From positions 186,001 through 250,000 of the forward strand of contig NZ_JANTEZ010000002.1 in NCBI RefSeq assembly GCF_024978135.1: 64,000 nt of DNA, in the 5' to 3' direction. The notes under the pieces were generated by a model that was not told the origin of the DNA, did no database searches, and saw nothing but the letters and a program-made list of their open reading frames with translations. Shown piece by piece: positions 21,371 through 46,244 of the stretch; positions within the stretch are counted from its first letter, which is position 1; each line of letters begins with the position of its first letter. A program made the translations under genes and the position numbers. Origin of the DNA: Herbiconiux gentiana. GTDB taxonomy: Bacteria; Actinomycetota; Actinomycetes; Actinomycetales; Microbacteriaceae.

Positions 21371-22417
21371 TCACCTCCTGCGAGCGGTCAGCACCTTCTG
21401 CAGAATGATGAAGACGAGCAGCAGCGCGCCGATGAAGATCTTGGTCCACCACGACGACAGGGTGCCCTCGAAGGTGATGATCGTCTGGATCACGCCGAGC
21501 ACCAGCCCGCCGAGCACCGAGCCGAGCACGAAGCCGTAGCCGCCGGTCAGCAGGGTGCCGCCGATGACCACCGCGGCGATGGCGTCGAGCTCGGTGCCGA
21601 CCGCCGTCAGCGGGTAGCCCGAGAGCGTGTAGAACGAGAACAGCACGCCCGCGAGACCCGAGCAGAAACCGCTCACCACGTACACGATCACCTTGGTGCG
21701 CGCCACGGGCAGGCCCATCAGGATGCCCGACTGCTCGCTCCCGCCGATGGCGTACACCGTGCGCCCGAACCGCGTGAAGCCGAGCACCCACACCGCGACG
21801 ATCACCACGGCGAGCGCGATCACGACGCTCGGGGTGATGCTGAGGCCGCCGCCGAGCGGGATGCGCGTGACGGCCAGCGCCACGAAGGTGGGCTCGGTGA
21901 TCGAGATCGAGTCCTTCGAGATCACGTAGCAGAGGCCGCGGGCGAGGAACATCGCGGCCAGCGTCGCGATGAACGGCTGCACCTTGAACACGTGGATCAT
22001 CAGCCCCACGAGCAGCCCCAGCACACTGGTCAGCACCAGGATGAGCGGGATGACCACCCCCGGCGACCACCCGGTCTGCAGCAGACTCGCCGCGATCATC
22101 GTCGACAGCGCCACGACCGCCCCGACCGAGAGGTCGATGCCACCGGTCAGGATGACGAAGGTCATGCCGACCGCGAGCACGATCAGGTAGGAGTTGTCGA
22201 CGAAGAGGTTCAGCAGCACCTGGCCCGAGAAGAAGCCGTTGTAGCGCACGCCCCCCACGATGAAGACGGCGACGAAGAGCACCGCCGTGACGAGCACGGG
22301 GCCCGACTTCGGGCTCGTGAGCACGTCGCGCAGGCGGTCGATCGGGCGGCGCGGCGGGCGGCCCGGCCGCAGGGGCGCGGGTGCGCCGGTGCGGGGGCGG
22401 TCGATGGTGGCGGTCAT
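21371..22417 (-). CDS. Sugar ABC importer permease, YjfF type
   Basis: A 348-residue inner-membrane permease of the BPD_transp_2 (ribose/galactose) family, with about ten hydrophobic helices. The conserved core GMTFVILTGGIDLSVGAVVALS (about 85-106) and GYPLTAVGTELDAIAAVVIGGTLLTGGYG with its EAA-like loop are clear. The ATG overlaps the stop of the preceding permease (ATGA). With the second permease it forms the heterodimeric channel of a YtfQRT-YjfF-type importer; the E. coli system takes up galactofuranose. Next to araBDA, the cargo here is more likely L-arabinose or arabinofuranosides. Confidence 0.92.
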   Translation of the reverse strand: MTATIDRPRTGAPAPLRPGRPPRRPIDRLRDVLTSPKSGPVLVTAVLFVAVFIVGGVRYNGFFSGQVLLNLFVDNSYLIVLAVGMTFVILTGGIDLSVGAVVALSTMIAASLLQTGWSPGVVIPLILVLTSVLGLLVGLMIHVFKVQPFIATLAAMFLARGLCYVISKDSISITEPTFVALAVTRIPLGGGLSITPSVVIALAVVIVAVWVLGFTRFGRTVYAIGGSEQSGILMGLPVARTKVIVYVVSGFCSGLAGVLFSFYTLSGYPLTAVGTELDAIAAVVIGGTLLTGGYGFVLGSVLGGLVLGVIQTIITFEGTLSSWWTKIFIGALLLVFIILQKVLTARRR

Positions 22418-41204: not shown

Positions 41205-42407
41205 TCATGGGCACGGCACCAGCGCTTCGACATTCGCGCTCAGGACGAGCGGGCCGCCGAGCATCACGATCCTCCCGGGAGCCAGACGGGTGAGGTCGTC
41301 GAGCACCACCCTCGGCACGCAGTCCTGGCGCACGAGGTAGAGCGGGGCGTCGAAGTGCGCCGCCAGCGGACCGCCACTCAGGGCGTCGGGGAACGACTGC
41401 CCGCTGGCGAGGTAGGCGACCTTCGCCTCGGTGAAGGTCGAGTTCAGCGCCACCGAGGTGGCGAACCGGTCGGCCCCCGCGAACCGCTGGGTGAGCACGC
41501 GGCTCTTTAACGCCGCTTCGAGCGGCGCCGAGATCGAGGCCGTTCCCCCGGCCAGCAGCATCGTCGTGACGCGCAGTTCGGCGATGAGCGACTCCTCGGC
41601 CGCGGTGGGTGCCGCCTGCGCCCCGTCGACGAGCACCACTGGCGACTCGAGCTGTGCCGCCACCGGTGCCGAGCTGAGAGCATCCGGGTACTGCCGCCCG
41701 GTCGCCGCGATCAGCCACGGCGATCCGGGTGCCCCGACCGTCGCGTCGGACACCAGCTTCCGCGACACCTCATATCGATCGGCCCCGTCGATCCTCACGA
41801 CCGTGGCCCCGGTCGCCGCGCGGGACAACTCGAGGGCCACCGCCTCCGACACCGCCACCTCCCCACCCACGATCACGACGGTCGTCGGAGTGAGCCGCAC
41901 GATCTCCCGCCGCACCACCTCGGGGAGGCCGGCTCTCGGCGTCAGCAGCAGCGGCGCCCCGTTGATGCCCGCCACCGAGGCGGCGCTGAGGGCATCGGGG
42001 AAGTTCTCGCCACTCGCGACGTAGACGGTGTCGACGTGCCGGGCGGCCATGGCCTGCGACACGGCGACGGCGCCCTCGTACCGGTCGGCGCCGCTGAGCC
42101 TCGCGGGCCGCGGCAGCCCTGCGGTCAGCGCCTCAGCAGGCTCCGCCGCACCCGCAGGCTCCGCTGCACCCGCAGGCTCCACGGCACCCGCAGGCTCCGT
42201 GGTACCCGCGGGCTCCACTGCACCCGCAGGCTCCGCCGCACCTGCAGACTCCACGGCACCCGCAGGCTCCACGGCACCCGCAGGCTCCACCGCACTTGCA
42301 GCGGCGGTCGCCCTGCTCGGGGGTTGAGCCTGTGCCGCCGTCGGCATCACGACACTTCCGAGCACGGCGAGCGACAGCAGCAGTGCTACGGGGTTTCGAC
42401 GGAACAT
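41205..42407 (-). CDS. Secreted cell-wall-binding repeat 2 (CWB2) protein with EPAG repeats
   Basis: A 400-residue exported protein. A signal peptide (about 1-28, ending AQAQP) is followed by nine six-residue units of the type AVEPAG (about 38-92). Three CWB2 modules follow (about 100-400), each with the signature DRYE/DRFA and YVASGENFPDALSAA-like motifs (variants AATGRQYPDALSSA, LASGQSFPDALSGG) and a VVIVGG/MLLAGG/IVMLGG strand. Tandem triple CWB2 modules anchor proteins to cell-wall polymers in clostridia. No catalytic domain is present, so it is probably a surface anchor or scaffold. It shares an upstream dyad with two other CWB2 genes in the window. Confidence 0.9.
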   Translation of the reverse strand: MFRRNPVALLLSLAVLGSVVMPTAAQAQPPSRATAAASAVEPAGAVEPAGAVESAGAAEPAGAVEPAGTTEPAGAVEPAGAAEPAGAAEPAEALTAGLPRPARLSGADRYEGAVAVSQAMAARHVDTVYVASGENFPDALSAASVAGINGAPLLLTPRAGLPEVVRREIVRLTPTTVVIVGGEVAVSEAVALELSRAATGATVVRIDGADRYEVSRKLVSDATVGAPGSPWLIAATGRQYPDALSSAPVAAQLESPVVLVDGAQAAPTAAEESLIAELRVTTMLLAGGTASISAPLEAALKSRVLTQRFAGADRFATSVALNSTFTEAKVAYLASGQSFPDALSGGPLAAHFDAPLYLVRQDCVPRVVLDDLTRLAPGRIVMLGGPLVLSANVEALVPCP

Positions 42408-42467
42408 GGCTGGCTCGATTCAGGTCTGAGTGCCCCCACCCTGACGCACCCGAGCCACACCCCGGCA

Positions 42468-42484
42468 TGAGCAGTTACTGCTCA
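42468..42484 (-). promoter_or_regulatory. CWB2-associated dyad, copy 1
   Basis: TGAGCAGTTACTGCTCA is a perfect 8-1-8 palindrome centred 69 bp upstream of the CWB2 gene start. Related sequences precede the two other CWB2 genes. Confidence 0.7.
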
Positions 42485-42493
42485 CCGACACCC

Positions 42494-42651
42494 GACCGAC
42501 GCTCAGGATTCAAGCGCGACGATCACGAGCACGCCACCGGCGCTGAGATGTCGAGAGCGAGCCCCAGCATGTGGCCGACTCTCGGCGTCGCCGGCTGGCG
42601 TGTGACCGACGCTCAGGCATCGCGTGCAAGCACGCGGGACCGACGATCAGG
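42494..42651. repeat. Repeat copies of the GNAT gene 3' end
   Basis: gaccgacgctcagg occurs at 42494 and 42604, and gaccgacgatcagg at 42638, which contains the stop of the GNAT gene (42647-42649). The 163 bp between the dyad and the gene hold no ORF of note. Confidence 0.75.
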
Positions 42652-43183
42652 CGTCGAGTGGGAGCTCGAGCACGAAGTCGTCGTGCAGCTCGTCGCCCAC
42701 GAGGAACCGCTTCTCGCCGACCTTCGCGAACCCGCTCTTCTCGTAGAAGCGGATGGCGCGGGAGTTCTGCTGGTTGACTCCCAGCCATACCCCGGCCGCG
42801 CCCGACTTGCGAGCCTCGGCGATCGATGCCTCCATCAGCGCGCGGGACACCCCTTGCCCGTGGAACTGCGCCCGCACGTAGCACTTGCTGATCTCGACGG
42901 TGGGGCGTCGCGTGACGACCGCGGCGACCCCCGCATCGGACGGCTCACCGGCGACGAGCATGGTGTACCCGGCGATCTGATTGTCGACGTCGCCGAGCAG
43001 TATCGTGTGGGCCCCGCTCGCAAGGTACCCGGCGAACCGCGCCTCGGACAGGTTCTCGGCTACGAACGCCGCGATGGCCTCGGACGACGTCGTCGGCGGA
43101 CACGCCAGCTCGAACGTCTCGGCGGCGACGGCAGCGACGATCCCCACATCCTCCGGACGCGCTCGCCGAACCCTGACCGCCAT
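42647..43183 (-). CDS. GNAT-family N-acetyltransferase
   Basis: A 178-residue acetyltransferase. The GNAT core shows IAGYTMLVAGEP (beta 4), the acetyl-CoA pyrophosphate loop in CYVRAQFHGQGVSRALMEASI (near residues 105-125) and the terminal AIRFYEKSGFAKVGEKRFLVGDELHDDFVLEL. Such enzymes acetylate small amines, peptides or antibiotics; the substrate cannot be inferred. It is a monocistronic gene between two CWB2 genes. Confidence 0.92.
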   Translation of the reverse strand: MAVRVRRARPEDVGIVAAVAAETFELACPPTTSSEAIAAFVAENLSEARFAGYLASGAHTILLGDVDNQIAGYTMLVAGEPSDAGVAAVVTRRPTVEISKCYVRAQFHGQGVSRALMEASIAEARKSGAAGVWLGVNQQNSRAIRFYEKSGFAKVGEKRFLVGDELHDDFVLELPLDA

Positions 43184-43290
43184 GCCCCCAACCTACCCGG
43201 GTGCCTGCCTCCCGCCTCCCCCAACACGACGACACCTCAAAACCCCGAAGACCGAGGAAGCCTGAACTCCCCCGGCCTTCCCACCCCGCC

Positions 43291-44637
43291 TCAGTCCAGA
43301 GCGCAGGGAGTCAGGGTGTCGAGGGCGGGGCCCACCGCCTTGAGACCGCCGAGGATCGTCACGTCGACCGGCGCGAGGCGGCCGATCTCGAAGTAGACCT
43401 CAGGGCTGAGACACTCCGGCGTGGTGACGTAGAGCGGGTTGCTGCTGACACCAGCCGGCACACCCCCGGACAGCGCGTCGGGGAAGGTAGCGCCGCTGGC
43501 GATGAAGACGCGCGAGGCCGACTTGAAGACATCGTGATTCACGATCGCTCCGGTCGCGTAGCGGTCGGCACCGGCCAGACGCTCGGCCGCGAACCGGGTC
43601 GTGATGTCTTTCAGAAGCGCGTCGGACACGGTCAACGGCCCGCCCACGATCGTCGCCTCCCTCACTCCGAAGTTGTCGAGGGTACCGATCTCCGCCGATG
43701 AGAGCGTGGCGGCCCGACCGTTGACGAGCATGACCGGAGAGCCGTCTGTGAACGCGGCAGGCGTAGCGGTGAGCGCGTCGGGGAAATCGGTACCCGTCGC
43801 CAGGAAGATCGAGGACGTCTTGGGCATGCCGAACCGCGCGTCGGAAATCAGCGCCCGGGAGACCTCGTAGCGGTCGGCTCCTCCGATGCGGGTGACCTCG
43901 GCTCCCGAGCCGGACCGGAGTGCACGCTCGACGGCAGCGGACACGGCGTTGACCCCTCCGACGATCACCACGTCCTTCACCTTCAGCCGCTTCAACTCGT
44001 CGATCAGTCCGTTCGGCAGCGCTCCGCTGGGCGTGAGCAGCAGGGGCGCATGGTGCTGAGCGCCGACACTGCCGGCCGAAAGGGCGTCGGCGAACCGCTC
44101 GCCCGTGACCACATACGCGAGGTCGGCGGTGGGAAAGGCCGCCGCGGACAGGGCGATGGCCTGCGCGTAGCGATCGGCGCCCCCTATGCGGTTCACCTTC
44201 GGTGCCTGCTGCACCGTGATGGCGCAGTTCACCTCGGATGTGACGATCGCGCCAGTGGGGTCAGTGACGGTGAGCTGCAGGCGGAAGCGGTAGCGCCCTA
44301 CGGCGCTCGGTTCTCCGAAGAGCACGGTACCGAGCGCGTTGAGCTGCACACCGGGAGGAAAGGCCCCTGCGGTTCGAGTGACGATACCGCCCGCTGTCGC
44401 CTCAAGCGGCTCGATCGGGAATCCCTGGGCGGCCACCGTCTGGGGGCAGCCGGCCGCGGCCAGTGTCACCGTGGCCGAGGCCGGAGCAGCGGCGGCCACA
44501 CCTCCGGCCGCCGCGAGCAGCCCGGCGACGACAGTCGCCAGTACCGCCTTCCTCGCGTCGGTGAACCGGCGCGGTTGGATCGCTCGGGCGGTTCGGGCCG
44601 TTCGGATGGGACGGGTGAGACGGGTCGGGACAGACAT
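43291..44637 (-). CDS. Secreted CWB2 protein with N-terminal Ig-like domain
   Basis: A 448-residue exported protein. A long Arg-rich n-region and hydrophobic helix (KAVLATVVAGLLAAAGGVAAAAPASA) form the signal peptide. A beta-rich domain of about 95 residues with two cysteines (GCPQTVAAQ...SEVNCAITV) follows, then three CWB2 modules (IGGADRYAQAIALS, IGGADRYEVSRALIS, LAGADRYATGAIVN, with FADALSAG/FPDALTAT/FPDALSGG). The start at 44637 has GAAGG at 8 nt; a GTG at 44661 is also possible. It is paralogous to the next gene and shares the CWB2 upstream dyad. Confidence 0.9.
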   Translation of the reverse strand: MSVPTRLTRPIRTARTARAIQPRRFTDARKAVLATVVAGLLAAAGGVAAAAPASATVTLAAAGCPQTVAAQGFPIEPLEATAGGIVTRTAGAFPPGVQLNALGTVLFGEPSAVGRYRFRLQLTVTDPTGAIVTSEVNCAITVQQAPKVNRIGGADRYAQAIALSAAAFPTADLAYVVTGERFADALSAGSVGAQHHAPLLLTPSGALPNGLIDELKRLKVKDVVIVGGVNAVSAAVERALRSGSGAEVTRIGGADRYEVSRALISDARFGMPKTSSIFLATGTDFPDALTATPAAFTDGSPVMLVNGRAATLSSAEIGTLDNFGVREATIVGGPLTVSDALLKDITTRFAAERLAGADRYATGAIVNHDVFKSASRVFIASGATFPDALSGGVPAGVSSNPLYVTTPECLSPEVYFEIGRLAPVDVTILGGLKAVGPALDTLTPCALD

Positions 44638-44711
44638 GGGAAGCACCTTCGTAGGGAGCACGCGACCTTCGCGTTCCCTCGATGATGCGCCCGGCCGGCC
44701 CCGGATCCGTA

Positions 44712-44728
44712 TGAGTAGTTCCTACCTA
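44712..44728 (-). promoter_or_regulatory. CWB2-associated dyad, copy 2
   Basis: TGAGTAGTTCCTACCTA aligns without gaps with the dyads at 42468 and 46152 (shared ATGAG.A.T..CT.C..AC). It is centred 59 or 83 bp upstream of the CWB2 gene, depending on the start chosen. Confidence 0.65.
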
Positions 44729-44736
44729 CGCACAAA

Positions 44737-44758
44737 GGGCCCGCCGTGAGGCGGGCCC
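44737..44758 (-). terminator. Hairpin terminator after the upstream CWB2 gene
   Basis: A perfect 9-bp stem (gggcccgcc at 44737-44745, ggcgggccc at 44750-44758) closes a gtga tetraloop, followed in the minus direction by tttg. It ends the CWB2 gene at 44785 and is identical in core to the hairpin after rplA. Confidence 0.85.
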
Positions 44759-44784
44759 CTCTGGTAGGTGTGCTGCGGCGGTCG

Positions 44785-46086
44785 TCAGCCGTCGAGGCTG
44801 CAGGGCTTCAGGGTGTCGAGGTCGGCCCCGAGGGCGTTGAGGCCGCCCAGGATGAAGACCTTCTCCGGCGCGAGGCGGCCGATCTCCCGGTAGAGCTGCG
44901 AGCTGACGCAGCTCTGGGTCACGTAGAGCGGGTTGTGGGTGAGACCGGCCACGACACCGCCGCTGAGCGCGTCGGGGAAGGCAGAGCCGCTGGCCAGGAA
45001 CATCGCGCGGGCCGTGGGGAACGACAGCGAGTTCGTGCGGATGCCGGTGTCGTAGCGGTCGCCTCCGGCGAAGCGCGTCACGGCCAGGGTCTTGGCGAGG
45101 CTCGTCTCGAGCGCGGCGCTGACGGACAGCGGGCCGCCCGAGATAACGGCCTCCTTCGCGCCGAGGCCGGTGACCACCGCCGTCTCCGCAGCGGACAGGG
45201 ACGTCGACGCCCCGTTCACCAGAAGGACCGGCGCACCGGCGACGGCTGCGGGCGGCGACGCGGTGAGCGCATCGGGGAAGTTCGTTCCTGTGGCGATGTG
45301 GACGCGGTCGGACGACTTGATGCCGAAGACCGGATGCGTGATGAGGTTGCGCGACACCTCGAAGCGGTCGGCTCCGCCCACGCGGGTGATCGTGGCGGTC
45401 GAGGCGGCGTCGATCTGAGCGACCACCGCGTCGCTGATGGCCAGGGGGCCACCGACCACGACGACGTTCTTCGGGGCCACCTTCACGATCTCGGCGAGCA
45501 CCTCGGCCGGCATCGAGGACGCCGTCGTGAGCAGCAGCGGGGCCTTGTCGGCGGCGGCGACGGCCGTCGCGCTCAGCGCATCGGGGAACTTCTCGCCGCT
45601 GGCGACGAAGACCGTGTCGGCGCTCTCGAAGAACGCCTCGGCGACGGCCACCGTCTGGGCGAAGCGATCGGCCCCGGCGATGCGCACGACCTTCGGCGCT
45701 GTCCGCACCTCGATCGTGCACGTCTTGTCGGTGGACATCGGAGCGCCGTCGGGACTGGCTGCGACTCCGTGAAGAGTGAACGTGGTCGTTCCGACCGAAG
45801 CGGGCTTGCCGGTGATGAAGGATCCTTCGGGCCCGTGACTCAGGAGGAGCCCGGCCGGCAGCGCCCCGACCGACACCGTCACGGTGACGCTGGATTCCGC
45901 GATGCGCGGGGTGTCGACTTCGTAGTCGACCACGCCCACCGAAGCGGGGCAGCCGACCACGGGCGGCTTCACCAGTTCACCGGCAGACGCGCTGCCAGCG
46001 GCTCCGGATGCGAGCAGGCCGAGAACGGCCGCAGTGGACAGGGCGGTGAGAATGGCGGGGCGCGCCAGGGCAGGATGAGTCGTCAT
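44785..46086 (-). CDS. Secreted CWB2 protein with N-terminal Ig-like domain (paralogue)
   Basis: A 433-residue exported protein with the same plan as its downstream neighbour: signal peptide (ILTALSTAAVLGLLASGAAGSASA), a beta-rich domain with two cysteines (VVGCPASVGVVDYEV...TDKTCTIEV) and three CWB2 modules (IAGADRFAQTVAVA, VGGADRFEVSRNLI, FAGGDRYDTGIRTN, with FPDALSAT/FPDALTAS/FPDALSGG). The ATG at 46086 has GGAAG at 8 nt. The two genes look like a tandem duplication that has diverged. It is preceded by the CWB2 dyad and bounded by hairpins on both sides, so it is its own transcript. Confidence 0.9.
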   Translation of the reverse strand: MTTHPALARPAILTALSTAAVLGLLASGAAGSASAGELVKPPVVGCPASVGVVDYEVDTPRIAESSVTVTVSVGALPAGLLLSHGPEGSFITGKPASVGTTTFTLHGVAASPDGAPMSTDKTCTIEVRTAPKVVRIAGADRFAQTVAVAEAFFESADTVFVASGEKFPDALSATAVAAADKAPLLLTTASSMPAEVLAEIVKVAPKNVVVVGGPLAISDAVVAQIDAASTATITRVGGADRFEVSRNLITHPVFGIKSSDRVHIATGTNFPDALTASPPAAVAGAPVLLVNGASTSLSAAETAVVTGLGAKEAVISGGPLSVSAALETSLAKTLAVTRFAGGDRYDTGIRTNSLSFPTARAMFLASGSAFPDALSGGVVAGLTHNPLYVTQSCVSSQLYREIGRLAPEKVFILGGLNALGADLDTLKPCSLDG

Positions 46087-46151
46087 GGGGGTCTTCCGGG
46101 ATCGCAGGAATGGGTCAGGCGATCTTGACGCGAGAAGGACCTCGGGTGTTA

Positions 46152-46168
46152 TGAGCAATCTCTACTCA
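46152..46168 (-). promoter_or_regulatory. CWB2-associated dyad, copy 3
   Basis: TGAGCAATCTCTACTCA, centred 74 bp upstream of the CWB2 gene start, aligns with the two other CWB2 dyads and keeps the outer TGAG/CTCA arms. Confidence 0.65.
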
Positions 46169-46202: not shown

Positions 46203-46228
46203 AAGGGCCCGCCGTGAGGCGGGCCCTT
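46203..46228 (-). terminator. Terminator of the rplK-rplA operon
   Basis: An 11-bp perfect stem (46203-46213 with 46218-46228) around a gtga tetraloop lies 17 bp after the rplA stop. Its 22-bp core is identical to the hairpin at 44737-44758. Confidence 0.85.
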
Positions 46229-46244
46229 CCAGGAATGCAGCGAC

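Follow-up and report, generated by a model that had tools for sequence, protein, structure and literature searches.

A conserved dyad upstream of CWB2 surface-protein genes in Herbiconiux and its probable LAL-type regulator

Introduction

LAL-type regulators combine an N-terminal AAA/ATPase domain with a C-terminal GerE/LuxR helix-turn-helix (HTH) in proteins of about 900 amino acids. Other regulators known from Actinobacteria include HspR, which is widespread and whose HAIR element reads CTTGAGT-N7-ACTCAAG, and BldM, an orphan response regulator of the NarL/FixJ type from Streptomyces that belongs to a protein family with a LuxR/NarL-type HTH. In the available part of the source, the group I site of BldM is given as the 16-bp sequence TCACcCgnncGgGTGA (PMC4125116). 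Here we analyze a 64,000-nucleotide stretch of the Herbiconiux gentiana genome (contig NZ_JANTEZ010000002.1, positions 186,001 to 250,000; hereafter the window), in which a 17-bp dyad precedes each of three genes for secreted surface proteins of the CWB2 family (PF04122). In the literature searched, no regulator of CWB2 genes in Microbacteriaceae was found among the matches listed. A description of the motif or its regulon was not found there either: the listed matches to the motif letters are unrelated by title, the available part of an editorial (PMC10206216) is not about regulation in Herbiconiux, and neither motif nor regulon is described in the available parts of PMC3466318 and PMC4125116. 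We consider it likely that the dyad serves as an activator operator in sigma-70-type promoters, and that a self-regulated LAL-type protein, here called LAL1, activates through it a mainly secreted or wall-associated regulon together with zwf.

Results

The shared dyad before the three CWB2 genes, first noticed in a preliminary description of the window, is confirmed. All three copies lie on the reverse strand exactly where they had been placed, at 42468..42484, 44712..44728, and 46152..46168. Copy 1 (TGAGCAGTTACTGCTCA; gene strand TGAGCAGTAACTGCTCA) is the palindrome reported earlier, with two perfect 8-bp arms flanking an unpaired centre base. On the gene strand, copy 2 reads TAGGTAGGAACTACTCA and copy 3 reads TGAGTAGAGATTGCTCA followed by TAAC. 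An ungapped alignment of the three gives 12 invariant columns out of 19, instead of the 13 counted before. The genes that follow, also on the reverse strand, are CWB2 gene 1 (41205..42407), gene 2 (43291..44637), and gene 3 (44785..46086), and each encodes three PF04122 modules (domain search) behind a hydrophobic, signal-like N-terminus (judged by eye), in agreement with the earlier view of secreted triple-module proteins. From the centre of the site to the likely ATG the distance is 69 bp for gene 1, 83 bp for gene 2, and 74 bp for gene 3. A GTG at 44661 is also in frame for gene 2, and with a GTG start its site is centred 59 or 74 bp away, so the previously given range of 59-83 bp holds. 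For gene 3, the longest open reading frame (ORF) starts with a TTG within operator copy 3. Predicted -10 hexamers lie on the reverse strand at 42438..42443 (CAGGGT, gene 1), 44682..44687 (CATCAT, gene 2), and 46122..46127 (CAAGAT, gene 3); the first occupies positions 42-47 counted from the first base of its site, a distance that is fixed genus-wide.

A related pattern allowing up to 3 mismatches has 34 matches on the two strands of the window, against a shuffle mean of 12.2, and none of 100 shuffles reaches 34. Only 1 of 124 site-free 500-bp tiles of the window scores as high as the weakest CWB2 site retained; its match, at 21659, falls within a long open frame and was discarded.

In the same genome (3.85 Mb), TGAGYARTNNCTRCYYA occurs at 8 distinct places and the reversed pattern at none, and TGAGTAGNNAYTACTCA with at most 2 mismatches marks 19 distinct sites, against 1 reversed-control match. 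These 19 sites correspond to 25 rows of the search, where palindromes are counted double. The motif is not scattered over the genome: 12 of the 19 sites stand before genes for CWB2 proteins or for other proteins whose N-termini look signal-like, the downstream genes being assigned by reading the flanks and secretion being judged by eye. Strict sites are present in all 16 Herbiconiux genomes, the one studied included, with a reversed control of 0 in each. Relaxed sites, annotated among the matches listed, also occur in all 16, with 5 control matches in total. Orthologous CWB2 genes in these relatives keep the motif, in the arrangement GNAT-site-CWB2 at 9 loci and rplA-site-CWB2 at 7 loci, which between them cover 13 of the 16 genomes, in a synteny search that took in the loci with strict sites.

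Beyond the genus the dyad is rare. Among 199 genomes of the family from 85 genera, the strict form was found only in the 4 sampled Herbiconiux genomes and in G040, G051, and G124, with 4 control matches. Outside Herbiconiux this amounts to 3 of 195 genomes, with two sites in G040 and one each in G051 and G124. The form followed by TAAC was found in 18 stretches of the GTDB genome collection, 14 of them titled Herbiconiux and 4 ascribed to the genus members G008 and G010. G040 is the only genome outside Herbiconiux whose sites show the promoter layout described next.

With the first base of the site on the gene strand taken as position 1, so that the site spans positions 1-17, we aligned 68 of the 69 strict genus sites (one has too little flank), with identical surroundings counted once. 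The -10 box played no part in the selection of these sites. Positions 18-21 commonly read TAAC or TCAC, and outside these and the site itself two columns stand far above all others: 43 (A in 55 of 68) and 47 (T in 54 of 68). The two bases occur jointly at 54 of the 68 sites; any other offset between 18 and 72 gives at most 9. In H. gentiana the pair is found at 17 of 22 sites (next-best offset 4), a set made up of the 19 sites above and three weaker ones from other scans (L007, L066, and L078). It is present at all 9 sites before CWB2 genes, which are paralogues, and at 8 of the 13 other sites. An A and a T at the second and sixth positions of a hexamer are the hallmark of the sigma-70 -10 box. 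With an 18-bp spacer the -35 element would fall at positions 18-23, right behind the site, an arrangement known from class II activators. The dyad thus appears to adjoin the -35 region and resembles a class II activator site, as in activator-dependent sigma-70 promoters whose site abuts or overlaps the -35 and whose -10 distance is fixed. An enrichment of A at position 54 (30 of 68) likely marks the transcription start. The arms are asymmetric, with the upstream one mostly TGAGTAG and the downstream one mostly TTGCTCA, both of which the selection pattern admits.

One of the two strict sites in G040 lies upstream of a gene for a LAL-type LuxR regulator of 923 amino acids, LAL1. Matches to LAL1 at E <1e-125 are found in 15 of the 16 Herbiconiux genomes, split over two contigs in G008. 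Among the 199 family genomes, matches at E <1e-200 are confined to the 4 Herbiconiux genomes and G040, and the next-best relatives, in 4 genomes, reach E values of 1e-42 to 1e-44. The sequence TGAGTA[AG]AACCTACTCA stands upstream of LAL1 at 14 of 15 Herbiconiux loci, ending at the likely start codon in G006; G005 has the one-base-shorter TGAGTAAACCTACTCA, and G040 has TGAGTAGAAACTGCTCA. Over both genera, 15 of 16 loci therefore carry the upstream site and one carries its shorter version. Downstream of LAL1 lies zwf at all 16 loci (tblastn), and an extra site separates the two genes at 14 of 15 Herbiconiux loci and in G040 (weak in G001, missing in G004). With G008 left out, 12 of 14 of these intergenic sites have the -10 at the fixed place, the exceptions being G001 and G011. 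In H. gentiana, 4 of the 19 sites lie within 7.5 kb around LAL1 (C3:22028 to 29486), where simple arithmetic predicts about 0.04 if sites were evenly spread.

The LAL1 open frames are 879-977 amino acids long and carry a C-terminal LuxR/GerE HTH (PF00196, E 5.7e-11 in H. gentiana and 2.5e-10 in G040), which is the best conserved part of the protein (0.92 vs. 0.70 overall). The N-terminal AAA_16 domain scores 39.6 bits in G040 against a cut-off of 32.6, and 28.9 bits, below the cut-off, in H. gentiana. All 15 LAL1 proteins examined have a Walker A motif of the form GxxGxGR[TS] or similar, in which Arg replaces the usual Lys; three paralogues of the LAL2 group retain the Lys. With this Arg the usual ATP-driven switch may be altered, and the ATPase function of LAL1 is in doubt; the assignment of the domain is not.

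Upstream of the LAL1 site, at a distance of about 35 bp, a CTACGTA element occurs in 13 of 13 aligned Herbiconiux sequences, with two copies in G005. It may belong to the core promoter or form a second operator.

CWB2 genes follow 7 of the 19 H. gentiana sites, the three in the window included. The genome encodes 33 CWB2 proteins (grouped from 99 domains), and 9 of their genes have an upstream site with a position weight matrix score of at least 16; the remaining 24 score at most 9.3. Sites are concentrated before the shorter frames (7 of 13 under 560 amino acids vs. 2 of 20 longer ones; Fisher p = 0.013). The other sites extend the list to a LAxTG-type surface protein of 381 amino acids (L008), a lipoprotein adjoining a peroxiredoxin gene (L216; of the AhpC/TSA type in G040), three further frames with signal-like N-termini judged by eye (L219, L220, and L221), zwf (L213), LAL1 itself (L212), and the gap between the genes for DUF4193 and DUF3071, the latter being SepH (L156). 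G040 shares with Herbiconiux the sites at LAL1, before zwf, before the L134 surface protein, and at the gene for DUF3071 (identified by eye in G040), and no CWB2 match at all was found in this genome, which lets the CWB2 branch be compared with the rest.

Sites in the DUF4193/DUF3071 (sepH-like) gap recur across genomes (L156, L045, L046, L062, L092, L100, L159, L160, L171, L178, and, in G040, L223), with a spacing unlike that of the surface-gene promoters. Other sites, with a -10 at the fixed distance, run antisense within a gene called spermidine-synthase-like by eye (L005 at 1501-1517, L158, and L128; G000, G012, and G015), where a regulated antisense RNA is possible; in G009 (L060) the site points in the sense direction toward this gene. 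In G001 and G003 (L095 and L098) the distance from a site to a RelE/HigB-like ORF (so named by eye) is about 38 bp, and behind the site comes a second inverted repeat whose arms are GTAAC(G). Control of a HigBA-type toxin-antitoxin system, prompted by these two loci (2 genomes only), was considered and set aside. Within the window, near-identical terminator-like stems (GGGCCCGCC...GGCGGGCCC) follow gene 3 (44733-44765) and rplA (46203-46230), each a short way ahead of the next site (2 and 3, respectively); operator copy 2 is immediately downstream of the stem behind gene 3, and operator copy 3 has rplA on its other side.

Sites are also found near other regulator genes. LAL genes other than LAL1 have sites at their ends or upstream in G001, G004, G009, and G010, with a globin gene beside the LAL gene or site in G004 (Pfam-confirmed), G009, and G010. 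In G010 (L202 4345) a weaker site, TAGGTAGCAGCTACTCA, separates a LAL2 gene from a large divergent frame whose N-terminus is signal-like. In the 27 genomes of genus g82, sites with both arms perfect (TGAGTAGAAACTACTCA) occur twice, each at the 3' end of a GerE-type regulator gene and ahead of a small frame whose N-terminus is signal-like. Because the N-terminal parts of both regulators extend beyond the fetched stretch, they can be called LAL only tentatively. In G216 a third g82 site, TGAGCAATGATTGCTCA, is some 400 bp away from the end of another gene of the GerE type. Near distant LAL relatives in G096 and G158 (not G209), TGAGTAAAAACTACCTA occurs about 560 bp after the gene; it has no -10 at the fixed distance and was excluded as evidence.

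Discussion

We computed the site, its fixed promoter geometry, its restriction to the genus, the list of targets, and the presence of an operator at the LAL1 locus, and we infer from the sequences dimer binding, activation, and the role of LAL1 as regulator. We assign this role to LAL1 because of the site at its own gene, its neighborhood, its co-occurrence with the sites in two genera, and two cases in a third. A LAL1 dimer would bind TGAGTAG-NNN-CTACTCA, usually with the altered downstream half TTGCTCA at its targets. The site would end where the -35 begins (often TAAC or TCAC), with the operator centred at about -45 from the likely start, and the -10 box (xAnnnT) at one fixed distance would place the bound protein in contact with RNA polymerase from a class II position. 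LAL1 dimers would in this way recruit RNA polymerase to a regulon made up of a wall-associated coat and zwf. The operator upstream of LAL1 would provide autoregulation, positive or negative, and another operator lies between LAL1 and zwf. The preliminary description had taken the shared site to point to a specific regulator and a small surface regulon. The data support such a regulator; the predicted regulon is larger than the three CWB2 genes and includes the LAxTG-type protein, the lipoprotein, small secreted proteins, zwf, the DUF4193/DUF3071 gap, and the regulator itself.

Several observations weigh against this model. Four of the 19 H. gentiana sites have no clear sense target (L005, L215, L217, and L218), L005 being antisense to the spermidine-synthase-like gene, for which there is no Pfam match. 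Five lack a -10 at the exact place (L156, L212, L215, L217, and L219), and the two groups together comprise 7 of the 19; L217, which lacks the -10, is probably a chance match. The upstream regions of LAL1 lack a -10 at the fixed spacing in H. gentiana, in G040, and, by eye, in the others. The site there may act differently, and we would guess that feedback at this position may be negative. Sites are present and a LAL1 match is absent in G014, a 92%-complete draft, and LAL1 and the sites are seen together in two genera, of which one is represented by a single genome. In G051 and G124 single sites occur with neither the -10 nor LAL1, and we took them as background. The relaxed pattern has 18 matches in g82 against 23 for the control, which is a genus-wide background. 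LAL-like candidates are numerous at first look (31-61 in genomes), the LAL paralogues with sites share RTVDNHL in their HTH, and more than one LAL protein may read the site.

The abundance of LAL-like candidates and the LAL genes that adjoin sites also favor an explanation in which the dyad is a true activator operator read mainly by a different LAL paralogue or by an unrelated protein, with LAL1 as a conserved target. We regard this as unlikely: among the matches listed, LAL1 is the only regulator gene with a site in nearly every member of the genus, its range matches the range of the sites, and H. gentiana has no second protein of the LAL1 type at E 1e-10. Repression is a further reading that we find improbable. 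In it, the dyad would bind a repressor at the upstream promoter edge, and where the spacing differs, as it does before LAL1 and within the DUF4193/DUF3071 gap, a bound site could indeed block transcription. At most other targets, however, the site precedes the -35 and keeps a single distance to the -10, and TAAC or TCAC often stands where TTGACA would start; a class II activator would be expected to show such fixed phasing, which repression does not need.

It is very unlikely that the dyad belongs to a known actinobacterial regulator as a site of the HAIR/HspR or BldM type. HAIR has the same core, TGAGT-N7-ACTCA. The full HAIR element is not seen at our sites, however, whose flanking columns in the 68-site alignment are not CTT/AAG, and they are nearly confined to one genus, unlike the widespread HspR. 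Nor does the alignment agree with TCACcCgnncGgGTGA, the reading of the group I sites of BldM in the available part of PMC4125116. Chance or paralogy, that is, functionless likeness of the upstream regions of three genes that are adjacent paralogues, can practically be dismissed, since the same promoter spacing stands before non-homologous genes (8 of the 13 non-CWB2 sites) and reversed-pattern controls are near zero in Herbiconiux.

Returning to LAL1 as the activator, we tentatively suggest a history that we find plausible, if short of probable. A clade of LAL proteins reading TGAGTAG-N3-CTACTCA may have begun as local self-regulating switches, as in the two g82 genomes, and one of them may have become the surface master regulator of Herbiconiux, with its class II module placed before CWB2 genes, a sortase-type protein, lipoproteins, and zwf. 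Lacking the Walker lysine, it may sense a ligand or partner and activate without hydrolyzing ATP in the normal way. For the surface coat of an actinobacterial genus associated with plants and soil, the analysis names a candidate regulator, gives a precise operator, and lists targets, and it offers a clear case of a genus-wide shared operator with fixed promoter spacing.

Compared with described systems, the dyad has a core in common with HspR/HAIR and differs from it in its unconserved flanks, its placement upstream of the -35, and its near restriction to one genus. As with BldM, an inverted-repeat site would be read by a dimer with a LuxR/NarL-type HTH; the BldM site differs from the dyad and the architecture of the protein is unlike that of LAL1. 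Closest are the LAL regulators, which LAL1 resembles in its large size, its AAA-type N-terminus, its C-terminal GerE/LuxR HTH, and its proposed action as an activator beside the -35, and from which it departs in its Walker A Arg, its 17-bp dyad, and targets that are mainly cell-surface proteins. The targets in the window are three-module secreted proteins like other CWB2 cell-surface proteins, a family that is numerous in this genome, whose control is undescribed in the literature searched, and for which there is now a candidate regulator.

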